Shown here: in pieces, positions 3,052 to 24,185 of the stretch
Layout of the letters: each line of letters opens with the position of its first letter
How positions within the stretch are numbered: the first letter of the stretch is position 1
IMG/VR virus record: IMGVR_UViG_3300017917_001678
Coordinates: 1-36,169 of that record
Strand: one strand, 5' to 3'
DNA length: 36,169 bases
DNA from: a virus
The notes under the pieces: model-generated
What the model saw: the letters and a program-made list of their open reading frames with translations, nothing else
What the model was told of the DNA's origin: nothing
Database searches by the model: none
Made by a program: the position numbers and the translations under genes

Positions 3052-3468
3052 TTAAGTGAAATATTTTTTCACTCTTTCTAATAATGAGGGTTCAAATTTA
3101 ACTCCATGACGATTTTTAAATTCTCTTAACAATACTTTAATGTCGTCAATGTAACCATATTTCTCTAATAAGATATAGGCACCCAAATCAGCATCTATTT
3201 CATCTTGTTCATCTCTTGGACCATCGTGACCCATAACAATATGAGAAATTTCATGTGCTTCAATGAATTTTAATAGATTATTACCTCTTGAGTCAAGTAA
3301 TTGTTCTCCATCAATAATAACTAAATTATTATTTGGGACCATAAATCCATATCCATATTCATCGAACAAAGGTTTCATATCTTTGTATTGGAAATCATCC
3401 TCAAATAGAACTGCGATTCCTACATTTGGTAAAAATTCACTATTATATATAACCGGTCCTTCTTGCAT
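3052..3468 (-). CDS. Small zincin-type metallopeptidase (HEISH), 138 aa
   Basis: The motif HEISH (H72, E73, H76) sits in a helix. It is followed by a Gly-His-Asp turn and then an acidic helix with E90, D92 and D94 that could supply the third zinc ligand. This layout resembles the ImmA/IrrE-like peptidase group. The N-terminal half forms likely strands (VGIAVLFEDDF, NNLVIIDGE). The start codon overlaps the endolysin stop by one base (TAATG), so the two are probably translationally coupled. The role could be cleavage of a host regulator or of a phage or cell-wall protein. Placement after the endolysin suggests late expression. Confidence 0.8.
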   Translation of the reverse strand: MQEGPVIYNSEFLPNVGIAVLFEDDFQYKDMKPLFDEYGYGFMVPNNNLVIIDGEQLLDSRGNNLLKFIEAHEISHIVMGHDGPRDEQDEIDADLGAYILLEKYGYIDDIKVLLREFKNRHGVKFEPSLLERVKKYFT

Positions 3469-4307
3469 TACGAAAGTAATTTGTAATATTCGTTGAAATG
3501 TTTAATTCTATCCGCCAATCCTATTGTCCCGCCGTTAACTCGTTTTGTGACTGCGGTAACAGTTGCATTGTCAGCACCTTTATCACAAATCGCCCAAAGT
3601 TTGTTTGAATCGAAGAAGAATGCCGCAGACGCCAAAGGATATTTGGTTGCAACTAAATCAGGATTAGCAACACAATCCTCACCGATAAATTTGGAAAATT
3701 GTGTATAATTGTTTTTTCCGGTTAATTGGATATATCCTCTACCACGGAATTTATATCCGTCTCCAGTTGATTCAGGGCCATTACCCATTCTTCCACCATA
3801 AACTCTACTTGCGATTTTTTGTGGTTGACGTGCATATGATTCCGCTAAATTACCTGGAAAGTATTTTCCAAAAATACCTTTAAGACCCGCAGCGGAATAG
3901 TTAACATTCTCAGTAACCGCTTTGAACCCACCTGACTCATGTCCACATTGAGCCAAAAAGTGTGCTAACCTTAAATTATTTGTGATATTAAATTTTGCTG
4001 CAGTATCAGGTATCTGTGAGATAACTGAATCGGGAATATGACCTCTTAACTTATCGATTTTTAATCCCCCAACTGAAGAAGTGGTGATTACCGGAGCAAC
4101 TATTTTATCTTCGTTAATTGTTTCACCTTCAAATAATTTACTCCAAGTACTCGGACCAACTATGCCATCGGCGGTCAATCCATTGGCCGCTTGCCATTTT
4201 TTTACTGAGGTTGCGGTTAACGCTCCATAATATCCGTCAGATACCAGACCTAATTTTGTTTGGAGTTTTTTTACGTCATCTCCTTTAGAACCAATTTTTA
4301 ATAACAT
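3468..4307 (-). CDS. Endolysin: PG-binding domain plus GH19 lysozyme/chitinase-like domain
   Basis: It would cut peptidoglycan glycan strands at lysis. Residues about 4-60 form a PG_binding_1 module (IGSKGDDVKKLQ...DGIVGPSTWSKLF). After a Thr/Ser linker comes a GH19-type domain with the hallmark AQCGHESGGF, whose Glu is the expected catalytic acid, then NVNYSA and GYKFRGRGYIQLTG, and a conserved VNGG...R end. No signal peptide is seen, so release should need a holin. The ATG at 4307 (MLLKIGSKGD) begins directly at the PG-binding module; a longer start at 4337 adds residues unlike the family. It is divergent from the export operon at 4382, sharing an inverted promoter-like repeat. Confidence 0.92.
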   Translation of the reverse strand: MLLKIGSKGDDVKKLQTKLGLVSDGYYGALTATSVKKWQAANGLTADGIVGPSTWSKLFEGETINEDKIVAPVITTSSVGGLKIDKLRGHIPDSVISQIPDTAAKFNITNNLRLAHFLAQCGHESGGFKAVTENVNYSAAGLKGIFGKYFPGNLAESYARQPQKIASRVYGGRMGNGPESTGDGYKFRGRGYIQLTGKNNYTQFSKFIGEDCVANPDLVATKYPLASAAFFFDSNKLWAICDKGADNATVTAVTKRVNGGTIGLADRIKHFNEYYKLLS

Positions 4308-4323
4308 ATCTCTATTTTTTATA

Positions 4324-4360
4324 ATAAATACTTTCAAAGCTCGTCTTTTGAAGTATTTAT
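4324..4360. promoter_or_regulatory. Divergent late-type promoter motifs as a 10-bp inverted repeat
   Basis: ATAAATACTT at 4324-4333 and its exact reverse complement AAGTATTTAT at 4351-4360 face away from each other, 17 nt apart. The same AAGTATTTAT occurs ahead of the gene at 26414. Each arm resembles the TATAAATA class of T4 late promoters and lies 16-21 nt from an ATG (4307 on minus, 4382 on plus). I infer coordinated late expression of the endolysin and export operons. Alternatively it could bind a dimeric regulator. No TAnnTTTG box is seen in this intergenic region. Confidence 0.5.
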
Positions 4361-4381
4361 GTATACCAAGATACTATTAAC

Positions 4382-4882
4382 ATGAAAAAAATGCTCACTT
4401 TGATGCTAGTGGCGTTGCTATTAACATCCTTCACAAATCAAGAACCCCCAAAAAAAGTTTTTATCCAATCAATTGAAAATAAAATTGAAATTGGGTCATT
4501 AACAAAAAACCGAAATTTAGTTTTCGGATTTAAAAACATTCTTTTAGAAAATTTACAGGCGTTAAACTATGATGTTACGGATTCGGCGAGTAATGCCGAC
4601 TATTACATTAAGGTTGAACTATTATATTTTGATGTGATAGAAACAAATTCCGGATTTTCAGTTTTTCACAAAAGTGATAATGAAACGATATTGAGAGTTA
4701 GGGGTTGTTTGTATAACAAAGAAGGTAAAAAACTAAAAGAAACTATTGTGAGCGGGGAGTCTTCAGAGATTTCCATGTCAACCTTGATAATATCAGAAAA
4801 TGGAGGAATTAATCAAACTTCAGTTTCGAATGTTATAAAAAAGTCCTCAGAGACATTAATCATTAATTTATTTAAAAGATGA
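4382..4882 (+). CDS. Secreted protein of unknown function, first gene of export operon
   Basis: The N terminus is a clear signal peptide (MKKMLTLMLVALLLTSFT). The mature part is about 145 residues of alternating strands. It has a segment NADYYIKVELLYFDV followed by a charged beta region and a Ser/Thr-rich end, ending in a helix. The 'residues predicted poorly hidden in strands, with a repeated two-layer pattern' resembles small periplasmic proteins paired with CsgG-like pores, but I cannot name a family. There is no lipobox Cys. Its stop overlaps the next start (ATGA), so it is coupled to the T9SS protein. Confidence 0.75.
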   Translation: MKKMLTLMLVALLLTSFTNQEPPKKVFIQSIENKIEIGSLTKNRNLVFGFKNILLENLQALNYDVTDSASNADYYIKVELLYFDVIETNSGFSVFHKSDNETILRVRGCLYNKEGKKLKETIVSGESSEISMSTLIISENGGINQTSVSNVIKKSSETLIINLFKR

Positions 4883-6783
4883 AAAAACTAATTTCCGTGG
4901 TGTTCATTACTCTTTTTAGTGTAATTGGATACTCACAAACACCGGAAATAGGTCATTTTCAACAATTAAAAACGGTCAGGAGGGGTGATACGATAGATGT
5001 CGCATGGTATTATAAACCAGCGTCAGGTGTCGATATTAGAACTTTTCAAATCGATTTTCAATTTAAGAAAACCCTATTTACGCACATTTCAACATCGGTT
5101 GATGCAATGTATTCAACCAACACTCCAACCTTGGATTACCAAGAATGGAACAACTACAAGTATAGTTCATATACATCCGCAACAGGGATTTATAATTATA
5201 CTTCAGACACTAACTGGAAAGTAGGTCGTAATTACCTAATATTCGCTTCAGGAAGTGCCGCGAATTTCTCGTCAAATGGGTATATTATCCATAACAAATT
5301 CATTATCAATAATGTTGAATCAAATTATGAGTCAGATTCAATTATTGTGAACTGGTCGAGAATGTTTAAAGTGGACGGAACTTCAATAGGTGATAACATT
5401 GCAAGTCTTAACCTTCAAAAACAAAGAGTTAAGTTGTTAGGTAATTTAACTATTTCAGGTAAAGTTTGGTTCCCAACAACAATGACCTCGGGACTTTTAC
5501 CGACAATCTATTGTTATGAAAAAAATACAGGGAATTTGGTGTCACAAACTAAACCAAATATCAATGGAACCTACACTTTAAATAACATTGATGAGAATAC
5601 TAAATATAAAATTCAAGTTAGATTCCCACAGGATAGTTTGAATTACATTAGAGACAACGCAGTAACCATTTCAGATGCAATTAAAGCGTATAATGAATAT
5701 GTTTATACCGATGTTAATCAAACTTACGCACATAACTACTTAAAACATGGTTTAGGGTTTTTAATTGGTGATATTAACTTAAACGCTAAATTAGATGGTG
5801 GTGACCCTTATGGGATATACGCATCAGTTTCAGGGTTAAGACCAATCGATACTTCAAAACTAATAAATGTCTTCACTAAAAATGAATATGATTCTCTTGT
5901 ATTGGGAAGTAATCAATGGACTGATTGGGTAAACTATTCGGACAGAGGAACTTTCATATACGATAGTGTTGGTTTAACAAATTTAAGTTTAGATATCAAA
6001 TATTTTGTTTTAGGTGATGTTGATAGAACACACTCTTCACCGGTATTTAACGGAACAACCGAAATATTCGCAGCAATTTACAAAGGACAATTTGATGTGA
6101 ATATTCCTGATGTTTATTCCGTTGGAGAACCAATGTATGTTCCATTTAACATCTCAACAAATGGTGAACTTACTAATGGATTGCAATTTGAGGTAAAATA
6201 TGATGTAAATAAAGTTTCATTCGATGAGATAGTATCGGATTTACAAGGTCCTTGGTTACAATATGTTACCAATGACGATGTAAATGGTATTGTTAGATTC
6301 GGAGCAATGAATAATCAAAAAAATGGGTCGCTACAAGGGTTAGCGACCCCTTTTAAATTAAAATTTTTAGCCAAAACATCAACGGATGATATTTCGACCG
6401 ATGTTGTTATCAGACAATTAATGGATGCTTCAGATAAAGAAGGAGACCATTTGAATATTGTGTTAACATCACAAAGAGTTGTGATGATGTATAAAATGAC
6501 ACAACCAACAAACAAAAATACAGAGCCAACAATTAGTATCTATCCTAACCCAAACAGAGGTAATTTTATCGTTGAATTTGATTTATTACCTAACACAAAC
6601 ATGAATGCGTCTATTTATGATTATCATGGTAAACTAATGATTGACTTAGGGAATGTTAATTCAGATGCGACTAATACAAAAATCACAAAGAATATAAGCC
6701 ACCCTGAACTATCCCAAGGAAACTATCTATTAGTATTATCAGGTGATAATAAACAAATAACTAAACCTTTTATTAAACTTTAA
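4879..6783 (+). CDS. Exported modular protein with cohesin/dockerin-like domains and T9SS sorting tail
   Basis: It begins with a signal peptide (to about residue 20, ..VIGYSQ). Residues about 25-185 and 400-530 look like cohesin-type beta sandwiches (for example VGEPMYVPFNISTNGELTN then LQFEVKYDVNKVSFDEI). Between them, from about 190, are an ISGKV-type beta domain and a dockerin-like segment (DNAVTISDAIKAYNEYV, then GDINLNAKLDGGDPYG). The last 85 residues (ISIYPNPNRGNFIVEF ... GNYLLVLSG ... PFIKL) match the type A T9SS C-terminal sorting domain, so the host T9SS should carry it across the outer membrane to the surface. Such a tail on a phage gene is unusual. It shares the ISG/dockerin-like region and a YxVLGDVD motif with the protein at 10011-11114. 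Confidence 0.85.
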   Translation: MKKLISVVFITLFSVIGYSQTPEIGHFQQLKTVRRGDTIDVAWYYKPASGVDIRTFQIDFQFKKTLFTHISTSVDAMYSTNTPTLDYQEWNNYKYSSYTSATGIYNYTSDTNWKVGRNYLIFASGSAANFSSNGYIIHNKFIINNVESNYESDSIIVNWSRMFKVDGTSIGDNIASLNLQKQRVKLLGNLTISGKVWFPTTMTSGLLPTIYCYEKNTGNLVSQTKPNINGTYTLNNIDENTKYKIQVRFPQDSLNYIRDNAVTISDAIKAYNEYVYTDVNQTYAHNYLKHGLGFLIGDINLNAKLDGGDPYGIYASVSGLRPIDTSKLINVFTKNEYDSLVLGSNQWTDWVNYSDRGTFIYDSVGLTNLSLDIKYFVLGDVDRTHSSPVFNGTTEIFAAIYKGQFDVNIPDVYSVGEPMYVPFNISTNGELTNGLQFEVKYDVNKVSFDEIVSDLQGPWLQYVTNDDVNGIVRFGAMNNQKNGSLQGLATPFKLKFLAKTSTDDISTDVVIRQLMDASDKEGDHLNIVLTSQRVVMMYKMTQPTNKNTEPTISIYPNPNRGNFIVEFDLLPNTNMNASIYDYHGKLMIDLGNVNSDATNTKITKNISHPELSQGNYLLVLSGDNKQITKPFIKL

Positions 6784-6787
6784 AAAA

Positions 6788-7117
6788 ATGTCAGAAGAAC
6801 AAAATGTAGAGACAAATGACGGAACTTGGTCAGGTCTTAAAAAAACAATCATTGGTGCGTTAACCACTCTTGTAACTGCGGGAGGAGTATGGTTAAGCAC
6901 TCAACTTTTTGGTGGAAAAGAAGAATCGTCAGAACCACACCCGGTTCAACAAGCGGCTCCGGTTATTAACATCAACAACACACAACAACAAACTGCAACC
7001 GCAGGTGGAACAACAACTATTATCAAAGAAAAAGTTGTTGAAAAATCAGCACCACAAGAAACAAAAAAAGCTGAACCTAAACAAGATGAATTAAAAACAA
7101 AAGAACCACAATGGTAA
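6788..7117 (+). CDS. Small single-pass membrane protein with disordered tail
   Basis: Residues about 18-42 form one membrane helix (KKTIIGALTTLVTAGGVWLS). The N terminus before it is short and polar. The remaining 65 residues are low in complexity, rich in Gln, Thr, Pro, Lys and Glu (NNTQQQTATAGGTTT, KKAEPKQDELKTKEPQW), so are likely disordered or coiled. It overlaps the next gene by 7 nt. Together with the following two-helix protein and the nearby endolysin, it could be a holin or holin partner. That is inference from size and context only. Confidence 0.7.
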   Translation: MSEEQNVETNDGTWSGLKKTIIGALTTLVTAGGVWLSTQLFGGKEESSEPHPVQQAAPVININNTQQQTATAGGTTTIIKEKVVEKSAPQETKKAEPKQDELKTKEPQW

Positions 7118-7698
7118 ACAATCAGCAAGCAACAGGGTTTAAAGAACTTCTAAATTCAATGATGAAAAGAAGGTGGTATATTACTGCCATGGTATTAGGT
7201 GGGTTTATCCTTATTATAGGAGGAATCTTCGGAGCCATAATGTGGAAAACACCAATGTCAACCGAGTGGAAAGAATTACTACTTCTTTTATTAGGTGCAT
7301 TTATTGGTTCTTATGGTAAAATTATCGATTACTGGTTCAGTGATACCGATAAGGATAAAATGTTAGTTCAAAAGATGGACGAAGAAGATGGCACATCTCT
7401 TTCAAACACGGCAGATATGCCAAGTAACCCAATCGTTCCAATGTCAATAGAACCATTAGTTTTACCGACAAGTGAAGAAGTTGGACAACCTGTCCAAGTA
7501 AATGACCAAGTTGAGAAAAAGGGTGTTGAAATCGATGAAGATGGAGATGGTGTTATGGACGGATTAGACTTCGACAATGATGGTGTTATTGACGAATATT
7601 TCCCACACAGAAATTGTCAACATGTTTGGGGTGATTCTGATGGTGATGGTGATGAGGAATGTTTGATTTGTGGGTTAATTAAACCAATTGAAGAATAA
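7111..7698 (+). CDS. Two-helix membrane protein, holin-like, with Asp-rich calcium-type and Cys tail
   Basis: Residues about 22-48 and 54-76 are hydrophobic. The second helix, ELLLLLLGAFIGSYGKIIDYWF, followed by a charged S-D-x-D-K-D-K segment, resembles phage membrane proteins often placed near lysis genes. A Pro/Val linker follows. Next is a motif rich in D-x-D-G-D (IDEDGDGVMDGLDFDNDG), like thrombospondin type 3 or EF-hand-like calcium loops. The end has NCQHVWGDSDGDGDEECLICG, where Cys-x-His and Cys-x2-Cys could hold a metal. Two overlapping neighbours show tight operon coupling. Candidate holin, or an envelope anchor for the exported proteins. Confidence 0.7.
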   Translation: MVNNQQATGFKELLNSMMKRRWYITAMVLGGFILIIGGIFGAIMWKTPMSTEWKELLLLLLGAFIGSYGKIIDYWFSDTDKDKMLVQKMDEEDGTSLSNTADMPSNPIVPMSIEPLVLPTSEEVGQPVQVNDQVEKKGVEIDEDGDGVMDGLDFDNDGVIDEYFPHRNCQHVWGDSDGDGDEECLICGLIKPIEE

Positions 7699-7699
7699 T

Positions 7700-8413
7700 A
7701 TGAAAAAAATAATATTGATTTTAATGAGTATGTTAAGTTTAGTAGCATACTCTCAAGTTGGGACCATTAAGACAGAACAATACCGAGCATCTTTTGAAAA
7801 TAATGCGTCAATGGACACATTACCTGAATACACCGGAAAACCGATACCGATTCAATTGTTAAACATTGGGGTAACTCCTGAATTATATGAGTCATATCCC
7901 GAGTTAAAGGATAAAAGGGTTGGATTAGGTTTAACAAACATTGTGGTCGAATATTTGGAATTTACCGACAGATTTATTTTTACTGAAGATAAGACAGAAA
8001 TTAAGAATCGTATGGTAAAACAATTTCAAGCGTCTCAAGCGGGAATTTCTCAAGACACATTAAATGGTAGAGGTAAGATTAGATTAGCTCACTATTTTGT
8101 TTATATTGAGGTTTATGATTTTAGTGTTAGTGAAGATGAAACTATAAAACTTAAAGGGAGTGTTAAGAATACCTTGACAACTCGTTTAGGACTTCAAGTT
8201 AAATTTGTTAATGCTGAAACCGGAGCATATTTTACCGCATCAGGATTAGGTGAAGCGTCAACAACAAGAGAAATGACCTTATTGAATGACGATAATTTGA
8301 CTGATGTGAAATTCAATCAATCAACAATTGGTATAACAACCAAAAAGTCATTGGAAAGTGCATGTTCTAAAATTGTGACAAGGATGATTAAAAAACAAAT
8401 CTTTACTCATTAA
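7700..8413 (+). CDS. CsgG/HfaB-like exported protein
   Basis: The ATG at 7700 gives a signal peptide MKKIILILMSMLSLVAYSQ; the preceding in-frame TTG at 7688 lies inside the upstream gene. The mature 218 residues include LGLTNIVVEYLEFTDRF followed by TEDKTEIKNRMVKQF, then strands ending TTKKSLESACSKIVTRMI. This order (strand, N-terminal 'ALTxxLxxTxRF', EDR/ExE helix, long amphipathic helices, C-terminal helix) matches the CsgG/HfaB family, which forms the curli export pore in the outer membrane. CsgG is normally a lipoprotein, but here there is no lipobox Cys after the signal, which is odd. The gene lies between membrane proteins and the repeat protein that might be its substrate. Confidence 0.7.
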   Translation: MKKIILILMSMLSLVAYSQVGTIKTEQYRASFENNASMDTLPEYTGKPIPIQLLNIGVTPELYESYPELKDKRVGLGLTNIVVEYLEFTDRFIFTEDKTEIKNRMVKQFQASQAGISQDTLNGRGKIRLAHYFVYIEVYDFSVSEDETIKLKGSVKNTLTTRLGLQVKFVNAETGAYFTASGLGEASTTREMTLLNDDNLTDVKFNQSTIGITTKKSLESACSKIVTRMIKKQIFTH

Positions 8414-8415
8414 AA

Positions 8416-10014
8416 ATGTTAAAAATATTACCAATCTTATTGATACTTTTATTTACAAATATCACTGCGATTGGTCAAACATTTACCTACACTTTTGTAG
8501 ACCCTTGTACTAAGGAAGTAACTCAGTTTAACTTACCAATTCAAAGTGGAAACGGGTCGTTGGTATCTTTTTTAGGACAACAAAAATATTTCACCGCAGA
8601 TGATGTTATCAGCGGTGATTTTGCCACTTGGATTAACCGAGTATATTCTGAATATAGAAAAGTTACCCCATGTTCAATTCAATCCACCACATTAATTAGG
8701 AACCAAATAACCTCCCAAATAATTGGAAACACAATCCAAAGTGTTGTAGGAAGTATTATGGGACAAGTTAATGCGGAATCAGGAATGTTAGTGAATACGG
8801 ATTTGAGTTCAAATTCAGATGAAAAAACATCGAAAAATGAGAAAAAAAGTAGTTCACAACCACCACCAACAATCTCAACATCCGGAGTCCCATTCCCATC
8901 AACATTTAACTCAAGCATCTTTTCATCAAACAATACTCCATCACCAACAAATACAACACAAAGCGGTGGAAATTCAACAACAAATACGACACAAACAGGT
9001 GGAAATTCAACAACAAATACGACACAAAGTCAAGGGAATACTACGACAAATACAACACAAACAGGTGGAAATTCAACAACAAAAACAAACCAAAGTCAAG
9101 GGAATACTGCAACAAATACAACACAAAGCGGTGGAAATTCAACAACAAATACGACACAAAGTCAAGGGAATACTACGACAAATACAACACAAACAGGTGG
9201 AAATTCAACAACAAATACGACACAAACAGGTGGACAAGGTAGTGAAAATAATACAACAAAAACTGAAGGGAATGAAGTTGGGACGACAATAACCATGACA
9301 ACTGATGTAAATAATGATAAGGGAAATGGAGGGTCTAATAGTAAAGGGGGAAAATCAAATGGTAAAACAAATCCAATCATAATTTCATCTGATTTAACAA
9401 GTGCCCAAAATTTGGACAGAAGTTTTACTCCGATTATTAATATCGGGACATCTCAAAGTTCGATGAGAGGAACCTCAAGTTGGGGATTAACTTCCATGAT
9501 TTGGTTAAACTTTAAACAATTTGCGGTTACCGGTAGATACACAAAAATGCACTTCAGTAAGAATAGGAAATTAAAATTAATCCATAATATGAATTTAACT
9601 GGTGTTTATTCATATGGTAATATTATGACTTTCTTGGGTTATAGTTTAATACTAAACGCAGGAAAATTTGGAATTACTGGAGTAAATGTCAGTGGTTCAA
9701 TGACTAAAAGTCCGGAAGACTTAAATTTATATTTGAGTCCAGCAGCAACCGCATTCTACACAAAACCGGTTAAAGTGGGAAAAAGAATGATAGTTTCCCC
9801 GGAATTATATGTCATTTCAACTCCATTAATATATTCATCGGTGGATAAAGTTAGTGTTTCAGATAGAACATTTAGTATGTTTATAGGGACAAGTGTTGAT
9901 TACCAATTTTCAAAAAGATTTAAAGTCAATATGAATTATAAACTAAACACGAGTACCAATCCCAATTTTCCGGTTCTTTCGTTTTTCCTAATTGGTTCAA
10001 AAATTAATTTATGA
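8416..10014 (+). CDS. Exported protein with 11-residue Q-x-G repeat and C-terminal outer-membrane beta-barrel-like domain
   Basis: A signal peptide (to about residue 21, ..TAIGQ) leads to a 120-residue N-terminal domain, then a Ser/Pro/Thr-rich linker. Next are about nine tandem units of N-T-T-Q-x-G-G-N-S-T-T (residues about 179-277), and an Asn/Gly/Lys linker. The last 180 residues are amphipathic strands ending in an aliphatic residue (..FFLIGSKINL), as in outer-membrane barrels. The Q-to-Q spacing of 11 and Q-x-G agree with half of a curlin repeat, so the repeat may form a beta-solenoid or amyloid-like fibre. It could be displayed at the surface through the CsgG-like neighbour. Asn/Thr/Gln-rich repeats might instead be just an extended linker. 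Confidence 0.75.
   Translation: MLKILPILLILLFTNITAIGQTFTYTFVDPCTKEVTQFNLPIQSGNGSLVSFLGQQKYFTADDVISGDFATWINRVYSEYRKVTPCSIQSTTLIRNQITSQIIGNTIQSVVGSIMGQVNAESGMLVNTDLSSNSDEKTSKNEKKSSSQPPPTISTSGVPFPSTFNSSIFSSNNTPSPTNTTQSGGNSTTNTTQTGGNSTTNTTQSQGNTTTNTTQTGGNSTTKTNQSQGNTATNTTQSGGNSTTNTTQSQGNTTTNTTQTGGNSTTNTTQTGGQGSENNTTKTEGNEVGTTITMTTDVNNDKGNGGSNSKGGKSNGKTNPIIISSDLTSAQNLDRSFTPIINIGTSQSSMRGTSSWGLTSMIWLNFKQFAVTGRYTKMHFSKNRKLKLIHNMNLTGVYSYGNIMTFLGYSLILNAGKFGITGVNVSGSMTKSPEDLNLYLSPAATAFYTKPVKVGKRMIVSPELYVISTPLIYSSVDKVSVSDRTFSMFIGTSVDYQFSKRFKVNMNYKLNTSTNPNFPVLSFFLIGSKINL
8950..9246 (+). repeat. Nine-copy 33-bp coding tandem repeat
   Basis: The unit begins AATACAACACAAA.C..GGTGG and encodes 11 residues of form N-T-T-Q-[ST]-[GQ]-G-N-[ST]-T-T. 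Units alternate mainly between Q-S-G-G, Q-T-G-G and Q-S-Q-G types. One unit is variant (K-T-N-Q) and the last is degenerate. Copies are nearly identical at DNA level, pointing to recent expansion by slippage or recombination and likely length variation between relatives. Confidence 0.9.
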
Positions 10015-11114
10015 TGAAATATTTGTTATTCATTTTATTATCGATAAGTAGTTTCGCATACTCTCAAACTTCACTATGTGCTAGTTACCCAACAACATTT
10101 TGTTGTGAGTATGTTTCCAGTGTTACGATAAACGGACAAACATATGCAGGTAGTAATGGATTTACCGCGGCATCCGGAGGAAACCCCGCAGGGTATTTCA
10201 ATTATACCAATGGAACCACAGTTCCAACCATTACCGCAGGTCAAACCATTTCAATATCATATACCGCAGTTACCAATGGTAATTACATGGAATACTTCAA
10301 ATTATGGATTGACTTCAATGGTAACGGAGTTTTAACAGATGCCGGAGAATTAGTCCATAGCACCAATGTTTCTTGGTTGGGAACAAGAACAATAACCTCA
10401 ACATTCGTTGTCCCAACAACAGTTTATAATGGGCCGGTTTTTATGAGATTTATTATGCAATATTCCGGTTCTCCTGTAATATGTGGAACTTATCCCTATG
10501 GTAATACTTTTGATTTTAAGACCACAATTGCTGGTGCCCAACCAAACCCAAATTTATCTCCAACCGAAACAATAAGTGGAAATCTTTCCATACCATCAGG
10601 TTTGGTTAATCGACCAAAATTAAAATTGTTCAAAATTAATGGTACGACTACCACATTAATTGATAGTAGTGATGTTGATATAAATGGAAATTACTCATTG
10701 AAACCAAACGAATATAGCACGACTTATCGTGTGATTCCATCATTCTCAACAACATTAACCAACAACGACTTATCTTTATTATTGAGCGAAGCGAGAAATG
10801 TTAGTGTTCCTCCGGTATTAAACCCGGGATTGGTATTGAATACCGGACCGAAAATGAAAGCTGGTGACATTAACAAAAATGGAAGAGTCTATATTGACGA
10901 CGGATATCTACTAGCAAGAAGTTTAACAGGGATGAACCCACTAACTGAAGTGTTATGGTTCACATCATCAACCTATTCAACCATAACATTGAATAATTAT
11001 AATATCATAAATTCATCATCTTTTTTCGATGTTAATTTTACAACATCACCAATTGTGTTAAATTTGAGGTATATTGTATTAGGTGATGTTGACTTATCAT
11101 CTTCTTCCCAATAA
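10011..11114 (+). CDS. Exported GEVED-domain protein with dockerin-like end
   Basis: A signal peptide (MKYLLFILLSISSFAYSQ after an extra Met) is followed by a Cys-containing region and a GEVED-type domain (EYFKLWIDFNGNGVLTDAGEL near residue 92). This fold is common in surface proteins of Bacteroidota. From residue about 190 an ISGNLSIP domain and dockerin-like repeats (TLTNNDLSLLLSEARNV, then AGDINKNGRVYIDDGYLLARSL) parallel the protein at 4879. It stops at GDVDLSSSSQ, just where that paralogue continues with another cohesin-like domain and the T9SS tail. So it is either a naturally short form lacking its own T9SS signal, or a truncation. Start overlaps the previous stop (ATGATG). Confidence 0.8.
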   Translation: MMKYLLFILLSISSFAYSQTSLCASYPTTFCCEYVSSVTINGQTYAGSNGFTAASGGNPAGYFNYTNGTTVPTITAGQTISISYTAVTNGNYMEYFKLWIDFNGNGVLTDAGELVHSTNVSWLGTRTITSTFVVPTTVYNGPVFMRFIMQYSGSPVICGTYPYGNTFDFKTTIAGAQPNPNLSPTETISGNLSIPSGLVNRPKLKLFKINGTTTTLIDSSDVDINGNYSLKPNEYSTTYRVIPSFSTTLTNNDLSLLLSEARNVSVPPVLNPGLVLNTGPKMKAGDINKNGRVYIDDGYLLARSLTGMNPLTEVLWFTSSTYSTITLNNYNIINSSSFFDVNFTTSPIVLNLRYIVLGDVDLSSSSQ

Positions 11115-13154: not shown

Positions 13155-13577
13155 ATGAAAAAAATAATAACATTAGTTTTCTTAGCGGTAACATTATCTG
13201 TAAAATCACAACAATCCGATATTTTATATATCCCAGACCAAAATTCATTAGTTGCGTCTTATAACTTTAAACAAGTGGGTTTATACTTCGGAGGATTTTA
13301 CACCACAACATTACCTCAACCTTACACTTACACCACACCATATTCTATAATGAATAGAATTGGAATATCATATGTTAGTAAAAATAACACATTCAGTATT
13401 ATGGGAGGCACATTTTTAGAGCATTATACGGTAAATGTTGAAATGTCTCCGGATGTTTGGATTAAAGTATATCCAATAAGATTAATCACAAAAAACCCGA
13501 GAACTTTGGATTTTTCTTTGGGATTAAACTACTCAAAAGGGTTTAGATATGGTATAGGGTTATCAATACCATTTTAA
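13155..13577 (+). CDS. Small exported beta-barrel-like protein, 140 aa
   Basis: A signal peptide (MKKIITLVFLAVTLSVKSQ) is followed by about 120 residues of short amphipathic strands rich in Tyr, Thr and Phe. It ends in RYGIGLSIPF; the final Phe is typical of proteins recognised by the outer-membrane assembly machinery. It is small for a barrel (enough for about 8 strands). It could change the host surface during infection, for example by blocking entry of another phage, but that is inference. It has its own host-type promoter, unlike the neighbouring leader-bearing genes. Confidence 0.75.
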   Translation: MKKIITLVFLAVTLSVKSQQSDILYIPDQNSLVASYNFKQVGLYFGGFYTTTLPQPYTYTTPYSIMNRIGISYVSKNNTFSIMGGTFLEHYTVNVEMSPDVWIKVYPIRLITKNPRTLDFSLGLNYSKGFRYGIGLSIPF

Positions 13578-16402: not shown

Positions 16403-17530
16403 TTAATTTGACAGTGGCGCTTTAATTACTGGATGCGATTGGTAGTTTTCAATAATAAAATCCGTATTATCCAAATGTGTTATTAGACTTAAATCATCTC
16501 CGAGTGATTTATAGAATTCATCAGTCTTTAGATGTCTTAGTGTCGGTAATTTATAAGGTTTTCTTGTTAATTGTTCTTTTGCCTGTTCAATGTGGTTTGA
16601 ATATAAATGAACATCACCTAAATTCCCAATCAATTCATCAGGAACCATATTAACTGAAATAGCAATGATTTCTAATAATAAACCATAAGATGCAATGTTA
16701 AATGGTAAACCTAAGAATGTATCCACTGAACGTTGATTCCACATTAAGGAGATTGCTCTAGTTGGTATTTTGTAAGGTGTGTTATCTACATTAGTAAGAA
16801 CCATCATATCAGCTAAAGGACCATATTTTTCTTTCCATATTGGAAGAGCTATTTGATGTCTTTCTTCCAAACTCAACTCTCTTGTATAAACTTGGAATCC
16901 ATAATGACAAGGAGGAAGCGTCATTTGGTCTAATTCTCCAACATTCCAAGCATTAACCATTAAACGTCTTGAGTCTGGGTTTGTTTTAAGGTCGTTGATT
17001 AGGGTTTGGATTTGGTCATAAGTATGTGGTAAGAATTCTTTAGATTTATCAAAATACATATTCCAACTTCTCCATTGCTTACCATACACAGGACCTAACT
17101 CACCCCACTTCTTAGCAAACTTATCATCTGTTTTGATTTTGTTAATAAATTCTTCTTGTGTTGTTACTTGTTCATACCACTCAATATACTCTCTTAATTT
17201 ATCTTCCGATGCAGGTGGTTTTAACATTAACATAGATTTTCTAATTTGAGAAAACCTCTTATAAGCATCACCATCCCAAATATGACAATTATTATCAACC
17301 AAATACTTAATATTAGTATCACCACGTAAGAACCATAACAATTCAGTTACCATTGTCTTAAACGCCATTTTCTTGGTAGTTAACAATGGAAACCCATCTT
17401 TCATGTTATGTCTTATTTGTCTACCAAAGACACTTATAGTCCCAGTTCCTGTTCTATCTGTTTTCTTTACACCTTGTTCTAAAATATCTTCTAATAAATG
17501 AAGATATTGTGTTTCTATCCAATTACTCAT
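16403..17530 (-). CDS. thyA: Thymidylate synthase (ThyA), with insertion
   Basis: It methylates dUMP to dTMP using methylenetetrahydrofolate, supporting phage DNA synthesis. Visible signatures: DRTGTGT and FPLLTTK near residues 25-53, ELLWFLRGDTN at 63-73, catalytic Cys208 in LPPCHY, phosphate-binding R188/R189, and RSVDTFLGLPFNIASYG. At 375 residues it is about 110 longer than the E. coli enzyme. Most of the extra length lies between residues about 92 and 140, after the DAYKRF segment, with a smaller stretch after TRELS. Such insertions are known in other long ThyA enzymes. Active-site residues look intact. It overlaps the upstream small gene by 8 nt. Confidence 0.97.
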   Translation of the reverse strand: MSNWIETQYLHLLEDILEQGVKKTDRTGTGTISVFGRQIRHNMKDGFPLLTTKKMAFKTMVTELLWFLRGDTNIKYLVDNNCHIWDGDAYKRFSQIRKSMLMLKPPASEDKLREYIEWYEQVTTQEEFINKIKTDDKFAKKWGELGPVYGKQWRSWNMYFDKSKEFLPHTYDQIQTLINDLKTNPDSRRLMVNAWNVGELDQMTLPPCHYGFQVYTRELSLEERHQIALPIWKEKYGPLADMMVLTNVDNTPYKIPTRAISLMWNQRSVDTFLGLPFNIASYGLLLEIIAISVNMVPDELIGNLGDVHLYSNHIEQAKEQLTRKPYKLPTLRHLKTDEFYKSLGDDLSLITHLDNTDFIIENYQSHPVIKAPLSN

Positions 17531-17735
17531 ATTCTTTTAAATTTATTGTTGATGTTCCATTTTTTTGTGCTTCCTTAGCCTTTTCCATCATTTTATTCCA
17601 TCCTATTTTATTTGCTATTCTTTTAGCTCTATCAGATACTAATGGATATTTAGTTATTTTATAAAAATTAACAAATGGTCCCTTAGGTCCTAAAACAAAT
17701 ACATCAAGTAATCCTATTAAAATCTTTTTTATCAT
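17523..17735 (-). CDS. Hypothetical small basic protein, 70 aa
   Basis: The N terminus MIKKILIGLLDVFVLGPKGPF has a short hydrophobic stretch, perhaps membrane-peripheral. It is followed by a basic helix (RAKRIANKIGWNKMMEKAKEAQ). It overlaps both neighbours by 4-8 nt. No known family. Confidence 0.55.
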   Translation of the reverse strand: MIKKILIGLLDVFVLGPKGPFVNFYKITKYPLVSDRAKRIANKIGWNKMMEKAKEAQKNGTSTINLKEYE

Positions 17736-18151
17736 TTTATTTTTAAATTCATTATTGGGTGAATTTCTGTGATACCATGTGTTTTATCAAAAACATAAGG
17801 TCCTTCCATTTCAATACTATCACCTTTTTTAGGGATAGTTATTTTATTTTTATAAAACCAACAAATTGGAAATATTGATGGGACAGAACATACAATTTCT
17901 CCCACAATACACCCATTTTCGTCTTTATGATTATTTTTGGATAGTAAAACACTATCATGTATTCTCAATTGAATGTGAATGTCACCATCCATGTCCGATT
18001 CAACTTTTTCAACTCTCCCTGATAAAGTTTCGGAAGAATCTAATAGAATTAATCTTTTTGGATGATGAACCCTATTACAAGGACAATCTTCCACAGAGAT
18101 TAGATGTAATAATGCTATTAAGATGAAAGTTACTAAAATTGTTAGTTTCAT
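17732..18151 (-). CDS. Exported or anchored OB-fold-like protein, 139 aa
   Basis: The ATG at 18151 gives an N-terminal hydrophobic segment (MKLTILVTFILIALLHLISV), a signal or anchor. Then come CPCNR...HPKRL and a beta-rich domain: LSGRVEKVESDMDGDIHIQLRI, KGDSIEMEGPYV and HGITEIHPIMNLKI. The (D)xxHG-xxEIHP ending is familiar from small exported OB-fold-like proteins, which may bind nucleic acid or sugars outside the cytoplasm. It overlaps the next gene by 4 nt and starts 1 nt after the upstream stop. Confidence 0.65.
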   Translation of the reverse strand: MKLTILVTFILIALLHLISVEDCPCNRVHHPKRLILLDSSETLSGRVEKVESDMDGDIHIQLRIHDSVLLSKNNHKDENGCIVGEIVCSVPSIFPICWFYKNKITIPKKGDSIEMEGPYVFDKTHGITEIHPIMNLKIK

Positions 18152-18152
18152 A

Positions 18153-18443
18153 TTAAAATTTAATTTTTTTCCATCGATAAACCTCAACCTTAATATGTTT
18201 GTTTATTGGAACTACATATAATTTTAAACCTTCTTTTTCTTCTATAAACCCATCTTCAGTTTGGATAATGGTTACATATGTTCTATCACCATTTCTATCG
18301 GACACTATCCCATGTTCAAGAACCACGCCATCAATAACTTTCTTTTCTCTAAAATATAGTGTTCCTGCAATTGAAGTTAATAGTAGTATAAATAACAAAC
18401 CAATAAGGAGTTCTCCAAATCTTTCTCTTATAAAATTAATCAT
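18153..18443 (-). CDS. Single-pass membrane protein, 96 aa
   Basis: Residues about 10-31 (LLIGLLFILLLTSIAGTLYF) form a membrane helix. The remaining part is beta-rich (VIDGVVLEHGIV, TYVTIIQTEDGF, KHIKVEVYRWKKIKF), likely facing the periplasm. Its position between two other membrane or exported genes suggests a small envelope module. No family recognised. Confidence 0.65.
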   Translation of the reverse strand: MINFIRERFGELLIGLLFILLLTSIAGTLYFREKKVIDGVVLEHGIVSDRNGDRTYVTIIQTEDGFIEEKEGLKLYVVPINKHIKVEVYRWKKIKF

Positions 18444-18445
18444 GA

Positions 18446-18619
18446 CTACTCTTTAATTAAAATTTTCAATATTGTTTCTAACTCATTTTCTAACGAGGTA
18501 AGGTTTTCTTCTAATTTTGTGGTGTCAACACCATAACCACTTTTATCAATTTCCCAATGAATTGAGTTTATTTCAGCAATTAACTGACAATAACGTTTAA
18601 TTTCTTTTCTATTTTTCAT
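18446..18619 (-). CDS. Tiny coiled-coil-like protein, 57 aa
   Basis: ATG at 18619, stop at 18446-18448, exactly filling the space between neighbours (11-bp overlap upstream, 2-nt gap downstream). The sequence is helical throughout: MKNRKEIKRYCQLIAEINS, a short GYGVDTTK turn, then TSLENELETILKILIKE, whose heptad spacing suggests coiled-coil pairing. No known family. Confidence 0.6.
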   Translation of the reverse strand: MKNRKEIKRYCQLIAEINSIHWEIDKSGYGVDTTKLEENLTSLENELETILKILIKE

Positions 18620-18923
18620 ATTCAAATTCTTTTTTAAGTTTCAAATAATTTTGTCTTCTCTCTTCCTTTAATTTCACTTCATAATCCTCATCCAATAATC
18701 TTCTCAAATTATCTTTCATATGAGACACATAACCTGTGTCATAGGCGTTCTTACCATCATGGACGATATACATACCTTTGTATACTTTTTCTTGACAACC
18801 ATTGACTATAACATAATTATAAGTATAGAATTCGGGTTCGCCAAAAGCCCCATGACCATCATATTCAGAACCTTGTCTAACTAAAGAACAAGTTTCCATT
18901 TTTTCAATAGTAATTTTATCCAT
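18609..18923 (-). CDS. Hypothetical protein with RQNYLKLKKEF tail, 104 aa
   Basis: The first 65 residues are beta-rich with aromatic residues (YTYNYVIVNGCQEKVYKGMYIVHDGK). The rest is a charged helix ending KEERRQNYLKLKKEFEYEK. That tail closely resembles the end of the protein at 22746-23063 (RYERYLKLKEEFENE), so the two may share a docking helix. Function unknown. Confidence 0.65.
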   Translation of the reverse strand: MDKITIEKMETCSLVRQGSEYDGHGAFGEPEFYTYNYVIVNGCQEKVYKGMYIVHDGKNAYDTGYVSHMKDNLRRLLDEDYEVKLKEERRQNYLKLKKEFEYEK

Positions 18924-18924
18924 T

Positions 18925-19098
18925 TTATTTATTATTTTCGTTATTTTTTATTGCTCTTAATGCGGTTTCATATACATCAACCCGTTCTTTAGTTTTGATA
19001 TCCTTGGATAACACTTTAACTAAATCAAATAGGGAATCTTTAACACCTAATCTATGTGCCTCAAAAATTATTTCTTCAATTCTTTCCTCGTTTGTCAT
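18925..19098 (-). CDS. Tiny helical protein, 57 aa
   Basis: ATG at 19098 overlaps the upstream stop by 4 nt (ATGA) and the stop is 1 nt from the next ATG. The sequence contains EEIIFEAHRLGVKDSLFDLV. It resembles the neighbouring 68-residue product, which has MEDAYNLGITDVFKWL: both carry E-A-x-x-L-G-[IV]-x-D-x-[LF]. They look like duplicated short helical proteins. Function unknown. Confidence 0.6.
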   Translation of the reverse strand: MTNEERIEEIIFEAHRLGVKDSLFDLVKVLSKDIKTKERVDVYETALRAIKNNENNK

Positions 19099-19301
19099 AT
19101 TTTGGTGTTATTTTGACTATTCCATTCATCAATTATGTATTGTATGTTGTCCGTTAGATAATCCATGTTTGATAACCATTTAAAAACATCAGTGATACCT
19201 AAATTATAAGCATCTTCCATCGATTTGACAACTCCTTCCTTATCGATAACATAAGTTTCACTTATATTTTTTTTATAAATTTCATTTAATTTCTTATTCA
19301 T
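19095..19301 (-). CDS. Small helical protein, 68 aa
   Basis: It lies directly after the RNA ligase stop (4-nt gap). The core EDAYNLGITDVFKWLSNM resembles the next gene's product. The protein is acidic and helical with no membrane segment. Its position beside the ligase may be incidental. No family recognised. Confidence 0.6.
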   Translation of the reverse strand: MNKKLNEIYKKNISETYVIDKEGVVKSMEDAYNLGITDVFKWLSNMDYLTDNIQYIIDEWNSQNNTKI

Positions 19302-19305
19302 AATA

Positions 19306-20373
19306 TTAAAGTTTTGAAAATTCCGGTTTTAATGCGTTCCAAATTATTTTGTCATAATTTTTTTTATCCCACATCGCAAATAATATTGGATGATATTTTG
19401 AATCATAATTACGAAATATATATTGAGCATATTCTTTTTTGGTTGGTTCAACTTCAACATCATTATATTTTCCATAACGGAATTGGTCGTGAATTTTTCC
19501 ACAATATTCCGAAATTTGATAATGGTTGTATCTTAAATTTCCCACATAATCTTTGATTTTTTTGTAAAACTCATCCGGAACATCTTTTAATAATTCATTA
19601 ACATCATCACCATTGGATAACATTTCCCATATTCCTGTAGTTGAAACATTGGTCATTATTTTGTGGAGTCTCAAATATTCTTCACCCTTAATTTTCATTC
19701 TATCACCATTTGAGAATCGAATAACAAATCCTTCAGCATTATCCACCACCATATGTTTTAGTTTGGTATAATCCTCAATTCCGTCATATTGTTTAACAAC
19801 TTTGAATTCAAGATTATGTATTAAGTTTTTCAACCTCATGTCGTTTCCTTCGTGATGTAAATCAACTTCATATCCTGTTTCAGTGTTTATCATTCCGAGT
19901 AATACCAAGTCCTCAAATAGGTATTTTACCACTATACGATTCTCATTGTATATGATTTCAAACAGGTAGGTATAGTCCTTGTGAAGTTTTTGATAGTCAT
20001 ACTTCTGTAACATCTCAAATCCTTTAACTGATTGTTCTGAAGTGAATGAACCACGAGTTGCAAACACCCATACACCTTCGTAGTTGAATAGTATCCCCAA
20101 AGAGCCATCCATTTTCTCATAAACTTCAAATTCTGATGTTGGAGTGTGTTTACCTTCCTCAATATTAAAGAATTTTTTGAATGGTCTTGCGACAACATTT
20201 CCGTTGTCGTCGGTAACCATCCCACGACATTGTAAAGTTATTTCATCCCAAATGTTTTCGTATTGAACTTTTGGAGTGTAATTCCATATGGTTAATGGTA
20301 ATGTCGGATGTGTTTGTTTATATAACAAACCATCTTCATAATATTTCTCTAAAGTTTCTATTAAATTTTTCAT
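19306..20373 (-). CDS. RNA ligase, T4 Rnl1-like
   Basis: It would seal 5'-phosphate and 3'-hydroxyl RNA ends with ATP. The nucleotidyltransferase motifs are clear: lysine K87 in KMDGS (motif I), QCRGMVTDD and ARPFKKFFNIEE, FEIIY near 139 (motif IIIa), EGFVIRF near 214 (motif IV), and K227-x-K229 (motif V). At 355 residues it is close to T4 Rnl1 (374). T4 Rnl1 repairs tRNA cut by the host anticodon nuclease. The start is at 20373, because the promoter TATATTTGC ends 4 nt before it. First gene of a 12-gene leftward operon. A P-loop kinase lies at 21831-22232 and a cREC-like protein at 35868. Confidence 0.92.
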   Translation of the reverse strand: MKNLIETLEKYYEDGLLYKQTHPTLPLTIWNYTPKVQYENIWDEITLQCRGMVTDDNGNVVARPFKKFFNIEEGKHTPTSEFEVYEKMDGSLGILFNYEGVWVFATRGSFTSEQSVKGFEMLQKYDYQKLHKDYTYLFEIIYNENRIVVKYLFEDLVLLGMINTETGYEVDLHHEGNDMRLKNLIHNLEFKVVKQYDGIEDYTKLKHMVVDNAEGFVIRFSNGDRMKIKGEEYLRLHKIMTNVSTTGIWEMLSNGDDVNELLKDVPDEFYKKIKDYVGNLRYNHYQISEYCGKIHDQFRYGKYNDVEVEPTKKEYAQYIFRNYDSKYHPILFAMWDKKNYDKIIWNALKPEFSKL

Positions 20374-20376
20374 AGT

Positions 20377-20385
20377 GCAAATATA
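20377..20385 (-). promoter_or_regulatory. Bacteroidota-type promoter element, 4 nt from ATG
   Basis: The minus strand reads TATATTTG-CACT-ATG. With the -7 box ending 4 nt from the ATG, the transcript would begin at or next to the start codon (leaderless). Drives the RNA-ligase operon through to 15786. Confidence 0.75.
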
Positions 20386-20408
20386 ATGAAATTTATTTAA
20401 ATACATAA

Positions 20409-20441
20409 AAAAATCCTCATCAAAGGATGAGGATTTTTTTT
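20409..20441 (-). terminator. Rho-independent terminator after the SPFH gene
   Basis: The stem AATCCTCATC (20412-20421) pairs with GATGAGGATT (20426-20435) around the loop AAAG, a perfect 10-bp stem. The minus strand continues into T residues, so it should stop the SPFH transcript. It also ends in T's on the plus strand, so it may work both ways. It separates the SPFH unit from the RNA-ligase promoter. Confidence 0.9.
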
Positions 20442-20463
20442 TTCATAAGTATTTTAGGTTGGA

Positions 20464-21312
20464 TTATTTTACATTATACATCGTGTTGGTTCCGGAGCCA
20501 AGTTGAGTTGTTGGTAATGCCCCATCCCATTTCTCAATCCACATTTGTTGTAATAACATTGGAGTTAGGGTCGATTGTTTTAATTTGTTTGACTCGGCTT
20601 CTGCCTTTGCGGTTGCCAACATTGCTTGAGCGTCACCTTCAGCGGCTGCGACTTTGATTTTTGCCTGTGCTTCAGCGGTCTTAACTTGATTTTCCGCCGT
20701 AAGGGCTGTTTGAACCGCGTTGTTCTTAGCCTCAATCGCTTTCTTAAATGTTTCAGGATAACCTAAATTTGAGGTTAATTGGTTGATAATGAACCCTTCT
20801 TTAAGTAAATCCGATTCCAACTTCGCTCTAACTTTATTTTCAAATATTTGACGATTTGAAATTAGTTCTTCCGCAGTATAGGCATTTGCGGTCATACGGA
20901 ATGCGTCATAGATAGTTGTCTTTAGGAATCCTTCCTCAATTGATGAAAGTTCTCGTCTATACTTTGAAAAGATAAATGGAACTTTTTCTCGTTTAACTGA
21001 GTAATTCACGATTGGTGCAACATGGAACTCACTACCATCTTTTGAGTTAACCACAAATGAGTTGTCCGCATCCTCAGTTTTAATATACTCCTTGTGTTGG
21101 ATAAATGTTGGGAATTCGTAGATACGAGTTGTAACCGGATTATAGAATACCATCCCTGTGCATTCTGTGACATCACCGACACCTTTACCTGACCCATAAA
21201 GATTTACTTTAACACCGACATGACCTGCGTCAATACGCTCACAAGAATTGGACAACAGGATAAATACGAATAATGAAATTACTCCGTAGAAAATTAATTT
21301 GGTTTTTAACAT
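20464..21312 (-). CDS. SPFH/prohibitin-like membrane protein
   Basis: An N-terminal hydrophobic anchor (KLIFYGVISLFVFILLSNSC) precedes ERIDAGHVGVKVNLYG, the start of an SPFH domain. A long Ala/Glu/Lys-rich coiled coil (AENQVKTAEAQAKIKVAAAEGDA) and a Pro-Met-Leu-rich end follow, as in bacterial prohibitin/stomatin proteins that form large inner-membrane assemblies. The Cys at residue 24 sits after a hydrophobic run but without a strong lipobox. Several large phages carry SPFH proteins with unknown roles, perhaps membrane protection or interfering with host proteolysis. It has its own promoter at 21346-21353 and its own terminator, so is a single-gene unit. Confidence 0.88.
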   Translation of the reverse strand: MLKTKLIFYGVISLFVFILLSNSCERIDAGHVGVKVNLYGSGKGVGDVTECTGMVFYNPVTTRIYEFPTFIQHKEYIKTEDADNSFVVNSKDGSEFHVAPIVNYSVKREKVPFIFSKYRRELSSIEEGFLKTTIYDAFRMTANAYTAEELISNRQIFENKVRAKLESDLLKEGFIINQLTSNLGYPETFKKAIEAKNNAVQTALTAENQVKTAEAQAKIKVAAAEGDAQAMLATAKAEAESNKLKQSTLTPMLLQQMWIEKWDGALPTTQLGSGTNTMYNVK

Positions 21313-21345
21313 AACTTTTTTTTTTATTTAGTTTAAAATTGAATA

Positions 21346-21353
21346 CAAAGATA
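21346..21353 (-). promoter_or_regulatory. Bacteroidota-type -7 promoter element
   Basis: TATCTTTG on the minus strand, with about 33 nt to the ATG at 21312. The leader is A-rich with runs of A. It is paired with the terminator at 20409-20441 to define a monocistronic SPFH unit. Confidence 0.7.
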
Positions 21354-21366
21354 AGGGATTTTTTTT

Positions 21367-21597
21367 TTATTCGGTATCTTTTTTTTCCGAATCGTCCTCT
21401 TTAGATGAGAAAATATTTTTTAATGTTCTAATTACCAACCATCCACCAGCAAAACTTTCACTTAAAATTATTAATAATCCTAAGTAAAACACATAGGTAT
21501 CGGGTTGATTCATTAAGGTAAATGCGAAATTAGTTAATTCCACAATAGCGATTACAACTATAATTGTAATAAAGTAGTTTAATAATGTATTTTTCAT
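21367..21597 (-). CDS. Two-helix membrane protein, 76 aa
   Basis: The ATG at 21597 starts MKNTLLNYFITIIVVIAIV (first helix) and a second helix follows at about 37-60 (YVFYLGLLIILSES FAGGWLVI). The end is charged (SSKEDDSEKKDTE). The alternative ATG at 21606 would overlap the upstream gene by 8 nt. No known family; could be a holin-like or envelope protein by topology alone. Confidence 0.65.
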   Translation of the reverse strand: MKNTLLNYFITIIVVIAIVELTNFAFTLMNQPDTYVFYLGLLIILSESFAGGWLVIRTLKNIFSSKEDDSEKKDTE

Positions 21598-21598
21598 A

Positions 21599-21820
21599 TT
21601 ATTCATTTTCAATTATCATGTTAGTGTTAGATATCGGAACTCTTAAAACCGGTATTGGGTTTAGATGTTCTTCAAGTGGTGTTTGAATGGCTTCATAACA
21701 ACTCACTAAAAGCTTTACCGTTTTTATTCGCTCGAAAGTTTCTATTTCTTTAGAATTACCTCGAGGACCATCTAGTAATCGAATTGTTTTTTTATTCGTG
21801 TTAAAAATTAGTGTCTGCAT
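21599..21820 (-). CDS. Hypothetical small protein, 73 aa
   Basis: The N terminus MQTLIFNTNKKTIRLLDG and VKLLVSCYEAIQ look like a small alpha/beta protein. The QTLIFNT..K...L......S+.I..FE.I.TVK pattern is one I loosely associate with small uncharacterised phage proteins. It follows the kinase in the same operon. Function unknown. Confidence 0.6.
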   Translation of the reverse strand: MQTLIFNTNKKTIRLLDGPRGNSKEIETFERIKTVKLLVSCYEAIQTPLEEHLNPIPVLRVPISNTNMIIENE

Positions 21821-21830
21821 ATTTTTTTTT

Positions 21831-22232: not shown

Positions 22233-22236
22233 TATT

Positions 22237-22737: not shown

Positions 22738-22745
22738 ATTTTTTT

Positions 22746-23063: not shown

Positions 23064-23081
23064 ATCATTTCTAATTTTCTA

Positions 23082-23089
23082 CAAAGATA
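23082..23089 (-). promoter_or_regulatory. Bacteroidota-type -7 promoter element
   Basis: TATCTTTG on the minus strand, 18 nt from the ATG at 23063. It would drive five genes including the P-loop kinase. Confidence 0.65.
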
Positions 23090-23095
23090 ATAATT

Positions 23096-23293: not shown

Positions 23294-23296
23294 AAT

Positions 23297-24178: not shown

Positions 24179-24185
24179 ATTCTTT

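Follow-up and report, generated by a model that had tools for sequence, protein, structure and literature searches.

A conserved phage gene block linking a predicted CsgG-fold pore protein and a putative surface scaffold to lysis genes

Curli modules have been described in pelagimyophages, in HTVC023P-type podophages and in the OM43 phage Melnitz, and lysis timing or sibling capture has been hypothesised as their function (PMC7029224, PMC9599517, PMC9004378). What the CsgG pores of these SAR11 and OM43 phages are for has been puzzling, the proposals being lysis timing, uptake and amyloid-based capture. Here we analysed a 36,169-base IMG/VR virus record, IMGVR_UViG_3300017917_001678 (hereafter the window), and in particular a block of seven genes at positions 4382-11114, orfA to orfG (Table 1). 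This block represents a second, independent and far more widespread case of a phage CsgG-fold protein, whose gene is firmly linked with holin-like and endolysin genes, with a scaffold that bears a sorting tail of the type IX secretion system (T9SS) and with an exchangeable lectin, and which lacks an amyloid subunit. No description of this cassette was found in the openly accessible literature, subscription papers and preprints lying outside that scope. We favour, with a probability of about 0.45, the reading that the block is a phage-specific module for export across the envelope and for surface display, expressed together with the lysis genes. The presence of envelope genes beside lysis genes in hundreds of Bacteroidota viruses points to an undescribed route to the remodelling of the host surface near lysis.

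The relation of orfE to CsgG is missed by sequence families, as orfE has no Pfam match, but it is confirmed by fold and by profile-profile comparison. The AlphaFold2 model of orfE has a predicted local distance difference test (pLDDT) score of 63, which corresponds to moderate confidence; its 18 best Foldseek matches in the PDB were all CsgG (E=5e-8), and its top match among viral predicted structures was an annotated phage CsgG. Alignment with HHalign against 17 Bacteroidota CsgG sequences gave 1.3e-4 across 153 columns, with a z of 6.5 above column-shuffled controls when signal peptides were removed. We therefore consider orfE to be a predicted CsgG-fold outer-membrane pore protein. The second member of the pair, orfA, matches orfE (HHalign 1.5e-5, z 9.1 against column shuffles) and has two motifs in common with it, NRNL.FG.KNI..E.L and FNQTS....KKS. 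As a direct CsgG homologue it was rejected (z 0.1, not significant) and, since it matches orfE and not CsgG itself, it is regarded as a paralogue of orfE. The profiles of orfA and orfE matched no PDB sequence.

The block resembles curli (type VIII) secretion in the CsgG fold of orfE and in the position of the pore gene next to an F gene, but the differences are numerous. Curlin CsgA/CsgB (PF07012), CsgE (PF10627) and CsgF (PF10614) were all absent in 15 relatives, with a positive E. coli control. The orfE alignment shows no cysteine at the end of the signal peptide, and a loose lipobox pattern matched only 15 of 163 sequences. The F protein has an outer-membrane barrel, and the likeness of its mature N-terminus (QTFTYTFVDPC) to the start of CsgF (GTMTFQFRNPN) is weak and below significance (z 2.8). 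The block also adds a T9SS scaffold, a lectin slot, the inner-membrane protein orfC and lysis genes. As lipidation, curlin and CsgE were each looked for and not found, the block is not a curli system.

The modules of pelagimyophages, HTVC023P and Melnitz are similar to the block in that the phage encodes a CsgG-fold pore within a conserved operon that the host lacks, and lysis-timing or surface roles have been proposed for them. In contrast, they encode a recognisable CsgG together with CsgF, in some cases CsgA/B, FecR and adenylate cyclase, their hosts are Proteobacteria, and they have no T9SS scaffold, lectin slot, orfC, orfA or in-block GH19 endolysin. The hypothesis advanced for the pelagimyophage curli module, that sticky infected cells bring progeny near to new hosts (PMC7029224), could be transferred to the block on account of the CsgG fold of orfE and of the glycan-binding domains at the surface. 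We consider it quite unlikely here, given the missing curlin repeats, CsgE and CsgF, a linkage to lysis genes that suggests action late in infection, a type of block that has no lectin at all (see below), and the observation that no clumping was seen for Melnitz (PMC9004378).

Homologues of the block are common in viral metagenomes. A single-sequence scan of IMG/VR with orfE matched 514 contigs, and a scan with the homologue of Flavobacterium phage immuto matched 113, which may overlap with the former. The best 80 matches of each scan, 160 in all, together with two other loci, constitute the conserved-locus set; because it was drawn from the best matches, rarer architectures are under-sampled. 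Among 50,697 phage records, orfE was found in only four, all of phage immuto, and in 84,980 species genomes of bacteria and archaea a single contig matched, of 12.6 kb and from a Flavobacterium metagenome-assembled genome (MAG). Since this contig carries the same cassette, including a holin-like gene and an endolysin, it is most likely phage DNA. The pattern search of the species genomes reaches close relatives only, so that distant chromosomal CsgG proteins are uncounted by it; true CsgG (PF03783) was present in 35 of 99 sampled genomes. With a profile of orfE, 395 of 396 Bacteroidota genomes were negative apart from one marginal match, a genuine CsgG relative, the positive genome being that of the same MAG.

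An earlier note on this DNA, made from the letters of the window, had suggested as an alternative that the block might consist of recently captured host genes, and had proposed looking for it in other phage genomes and in host chromosomes and comparing codon use. A chimeric contig without phage function would be a related possibility. T9SS tails, GEVED and cohesin-like domains are indeed typical of Bacteroidota surfaces. However, the block is present, in conserved order, in hundreds of phage contigs and in one isolate, it was not found in host chromosomes, and orfE is nearly absent from the species genomes at this sensitivity and from the Bacteroidota genomes by profile. Codon usage matches that of the other phage genes (correlation 0.94) and the GC content is phage-like (0.338 for the block, 0.312 for the other phage genes). 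Recent capture from a host, or a chimeric contig, is thus extremely unlikely. The block genes are under purifying selection, with ratios of nonsynonymous to synonymous substitution of 0.02-0.31. Judging from immuto, the MAG contig and the T9SS tail, the hosts are probably Bacteroidota. Because an isolate exists, namely phage immuto on Flavobacterium sp. LMO8, the function of the block can be addressed at the bench.

The protein orfB combines a signal peptide with a C-terminal sorting domain that exceeds curated cut-offs (PF18962: 1.7e-9, 38.3 bits, cut-off 27; TIGR04183: 40.3 bits, cut-off 23), and is accordingly a predicted T9SS substrate. The sorting tail had been recognised in the earlier note, as had the CsgG-like component and the arrangement of seven linked genes, five for exported and two for membrane proteins, beside an endolysin; all three held on closer analysis. 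The cohesin, dockerin and GEVED modules it described fared unevenly. GEVED in orfG passes its curated cut-off (1.1e-11), whereas cohesin in orfB is below threshold in the window (0.021) and none of the window proteins gave a dockerin match; when orfB was scanned across its family, 21 of 40 sequences had cohesin and four had dockerin. The gene slot occupied by orfG is exchangeable and mostly glycan-binding: among 41 relatives it encodes Lectin_C in 30, LamG-like domains in seven, GEVED in four and PA14 in two, so that a C-type lectin is usual in relatives and GEVED is the variant of the window. The earlier note was silent on this exchangeable slot, on the linkage of holin-like and endolysin genes and on the exchange described next.

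Two types of block can be distinguished. In type 1 (127 loci) orfB bears the T9SS tail, and in type 2 (28 loci) a separate lipoprotein gene lies between orfB and orfC. No locus has both, and the two loci with neither are fragments or broken. The tail and the lipoprotein are homologous (HHalign 3.8e-8, z 18.5), and in two genomes the Pfam model of the T9SS tail weakly matches the lipoprotein. As they are mutually exclusive and homologous, they appear to anchor orfB by alternative routes. Mapped on the orfE tree, the character changes about three times (at least 2-3 switches). A lipobox is present in 26 of 27 distinct lipoprotein sequences, with acidic residues just after the cysteine in most, a pattern loosely reminiscent of the signals for surface export known from Bacteroidetes lipoproteins (PMC5080379); the type-2 lipoprotein may therefore be exposed at the surface. 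This exchange on one domain bears on the roles that T9SS C-terminal domains may have beyond that of a secretion signal.

The type of anchor goes together with the lectin. At loci with complete flanks, the G-slot gene was present in 96 of 96 tail-type and in none of 18 lipoprotein-type blocks. All 12 tail-type phage genomes inspected (131-317 kb) contain exactly one Lectin_C, at the block, and exactly one T9SS tail, in orfB; Lectin_C was absent from all 12 lipoprotein-type records, several of which are fragments. Three further ideas about the block were discarded. Sharing of the lectin with a tail fibre was not seen at the Pfam level, as the sole Lectin_C of each genome lies at the block; no reverse transcriptase (PF00078) was found in 12 phage records that would drive lectin variation by a diversity-generating retroelement, and no PADLOC model for an anti-phage defence system matched.

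For orfF, the earlier note had proposed a Q-x-G repeat outer-membrane protein. The outer-membrane part stands: the C-terminal region is confidently modelled as a 12-strand barrel similar to those of KdgM, NanC, PcoB and FapF. The repeat does not, as the six Q-x-G motifs of the window protein lie in its disordered S/G/N/T linker, a count that no homologue attains, and 73 of 150 homologues have none or one. The repeat was thus rejected as a curlin-like amyloid. Its N-domain is also confidently modelled and contains conserved DPC and PC motifs, these two cysteine motifs being present in 150 of 150 homologues; a helix separates it from the linker. Against PDB sequences, the orfF profile gave chance low-complexity matches only. 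At one lipoprotein-type locus (L082:10658-11077) a small outer-membrane-like protein of about 140 amino acids stands in place of orfF, and downstream of the block the window encodes one alike in size and type, at 13155-13577.

The C-terminal residue of orfC is a tryptophan in 157 of 157 homologues, preceded by an acidic stretch, and the tail that follows the transmembrane segment has a median length of 70 residues. After its two transmembrane helices, orfD exhibits D-x-D-G-D repeats and a conserved H-x3-C-x-H ... E-C-L-x-C-G motif, which looks metal-binding. Searches of PHROGs and with tblastn matched no annotated relatives of orfD, orfA or the holin-like genes, so the term holin-like rests on topology and position.

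The linkage to lysis genes was counted at 106 loci with flanking sequence of 3 kb or more on either side, a related and non-random sample for which the counts are descriptive only. At 74 of them the block has an endolysin homologue no more than 1.5 kb away; if holin-like genes are counted as well, the figure is 90, and 12 loci have both. Across 163 loci, 26 distinct gene orders include the endolysin, which may be found before orfA, after orfG, divergent from the block as in the window, or behind orfA after a holin-like gene. Such varied orders suggest that block and endolysin have repeatedly become re-associated. The holin-like genes, labelled by size, number of transmembrane segments and position without any family match, have two such segments in 99 of 99 cases; in several clades they lie inside the block between orfC and orfE, and in others directly before the endolysin. 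In the window only the endolysin adjoins the block, orfD being holin-like by topology. At L082 the order is A-B-lipoprotein-C-D-holin-E-small outer-membrane protein-endolysin. Most exceptions belong to the immuto group, although its close relatives L118, L131 and L132 have a holin and an endolysin directly after orfA.

These associations suggest another function, namely that the core (orfA, orfB, orfC, orfE and orfF, with holin-like orfD or HOL) performs the outer-membrane step of lysis. Once the endolysin has done its work, the CsgG-type pore, tethered to the inner membrane by orfC, would rupture or permeabilise the outer membrane, replacing spanins or working beside them, and orfG would be accessory. 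The many rearranged orders in which an endolysin adjoins the block, the placement of the two-transmembrane genes and the gene order at L082 are in keeping with this, and the tail of orfC is tether-like, with about 70 flexible residues that would be long enough to cross the periplasm. A role in lysis has also been proposed for the CsgG of Melnitz (PMC9004378). With regard to spanin and holin-endolysin cassettes, the block is similar in its holin-like and endolysin linkage and, in topology only, in having a protein that is anchored in the inner membrane and extends a long tail into the periplasm; it is, however, much larger, no o-spanin partner was recognised, and spanins include neither a CsgG-fold pore nor an outer-membrane barrel. 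Furthermore, it is hard to see what a 630-residue scaffold with predicted T9SS export and a lectin would contribute to membrane rupture, neither an endolysin nor a holin-like gene occurs within 3 kb at 16 loci of the immuto group and at L186, and the c10 gene found beside the endolysin in many loci could be the spanin-like element instead. We regard a direct role in lysis, the main rival of the reading we favour, as possible but doubtful.

The c10 gene (27 loci, e.g. L047:3461-4093) encodes one transmembrane segment and about 180 periplasmic residues and lies directly before the endolysin. A c10-like gene, 36% identical, is located 6 bp ahead of an M15 peptidase gene in an unrelated podovirus (L197, MW202828), and c10 is a candidate spanin-like lysis protein of Bacteroidota phages. 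Two other genes were observed in this neighbourhood: a secreted DNA/RNA non-specific endonuclease (PF01223, 6.5e-42) recurs within or beside the block (L041, L040, L078, L160-L162, L186, L190-L195 and L001, where it is immuto26A_12), and at L041:11577-12356 orfF and the endolysin are separated by a gene for a class-3 lipase (PF01764, 6e-23).

In the export and surface-display module that we favour, orfE oligomers would form a CsgG-type outer-membrane pore, with orfA as periplasmic partner of the complex and the orfF barrel in the outer membrane, its N-domain facing the periplasm or the pore. From the inner membrane, orfC would reach out by its flexible tail and dock via the invariant acidic C-terminal tryptophan. 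We infer that orfB acts as a scaffold at the surface, brought there by the host T9SS or, in type 2, held by the separate surface lipoprotein, and that orfG would be displayed on it or beside it; having no T9SS tail, orfG is a candidate cargo of the orfE pore. The linkage to holin and endolysin genes suggests that the block is used around lysis. The resulting lectin-bearing layer would cover the infected cell and its lysis debris, where it could hold cells together or, which seems likeliest, block the adsorption of further phages to cells and debris. An altered surface of the infected cell, one of the roles put forward in the earlier note, remains the best reading.

Several observations weigh against this interpretation. 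The lectin-free lipoprotein type retains orfA, orfB, orfC, orfE and orfF, so lectin display cannot be the core function; this is a real argument for the lysis alternative. As orfB would leave by the T9SS, it does not explain what the orfE pore carries. The model of orfE is of a single chain and moderate in confidence, and the counts are drawn from related genomes with few independent switches. Surface display and a direct breach of the outer membrane are nevertheless compatible, and we favour the former. The two could be combined in an undescribed lysis-time machine, in which the orfC tether, the CsgG-fold pore with its paralogue and barrel, and a scaffold anchored by the T9SS or by the lipoprotein derived from the T9SS tail would replace or assist spanins in breaching the outer membrane while loading a surface lectin; we consider this rather unlikely.

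The purpose proposed here for the block is known from other phages. Llp of T5 and Cor of T1 are phage-encoded proteins of the envelope that are said to prevent both superinfection and the attachment of phage to fragments of lysed cells (PMC9586334, PMC13164509). They would serve the same end by different means, being small periplasmic-side lipoproteins directed at one receptor, without pore, scaffold or lectin, and no sequence relation is claimed. Phage-encoded T9SS cargo genes have been reported for the 'Cryophage' (PMC7468147), which likewise has proteins with T9SS sorting tails. These are, however, variable enzymes and a PA14 protein, whereas here one conserved scaffold per genome is found in a fixed operon.

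Table 1. Features of the block and of its upstream border in the window.
Feature	Positions	Strand	Description
Endolysin (PG_binding_1 + GH19)	3468..4337	-	divergent neighbour of the block
Divergent intergenic region, 74 bp	4308..4381	.	outward-facing GAA(A)GTATTTAT elements ahead of both the endolysin and orfA, one each
orfA, 166 aa	4382..4882	+	signal peptide, no lipobox; predicted periplasmic paralogue of orfE; no Pfam match above cut-off
orfB, 634 aa	4879..6783	+	signal peptide; beta-sandwich scaffold, cohesin-like domain, C-terminal T9SS sorting tail (~residues 551-634)
orfC, 109 aa	6788..7117	+	one transmembrane segment, ~70-residue P/Q/N-rich tail, acidic end, C-terminal Trp
orfD, 195 aa	7111..7698	+	two transmembrane helices, D-x-D-G-D repeats, H/C-rich motif; holin-like topology; variable block member
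orfE, 241 aa	7688..8413	+	signal peptide, no lipobox; predicted CsgG-fold outer-membrane pore protein; most conserved member
orfF, 532 aa	8416..10014	+	signal peptide; N-domain 22-86, helix, linker 127-315, beta-barrel 321-531
orfG, 367 aa	10011..11114	+	signal peptide; GEVED domain and C-terminal module common to orfB

The seven open reading frames of the block are tightly packed, with spacings of -11 to +4 bp. The endolysin is supported by GH19 (8.9e-10) and phrog_181 (8.8e-70) matches in addition to PG_binding_1, and its translation probably begins at the ATG of position 4307. The intergenic region is a candidate promoter shared by the endolysin and orfA. Phage genes in the rest of the window include those for an RnlA-type RNA ligase/tail-fibre attachment catalyst and for a ClpP resembling head-maturation proteases. 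Five collinear genes at 29016-33599 have no assigned function, and two of them matched no PHROG. A TATTTAT(A) element is found, strand-matched, 7-41 bp upstream of about ten gene starts of the window, at 4324(-), 4354(+), 11130, 13582, 15181, 15186(-), 26395, 28728, 29002 and 35358; it is missing ahead of the leftward gene run 16403-25944. The late promoters of T4 have the sequence TATAAATA, and the TATTTAT(A) element may be a late promoter or a start-region motif.

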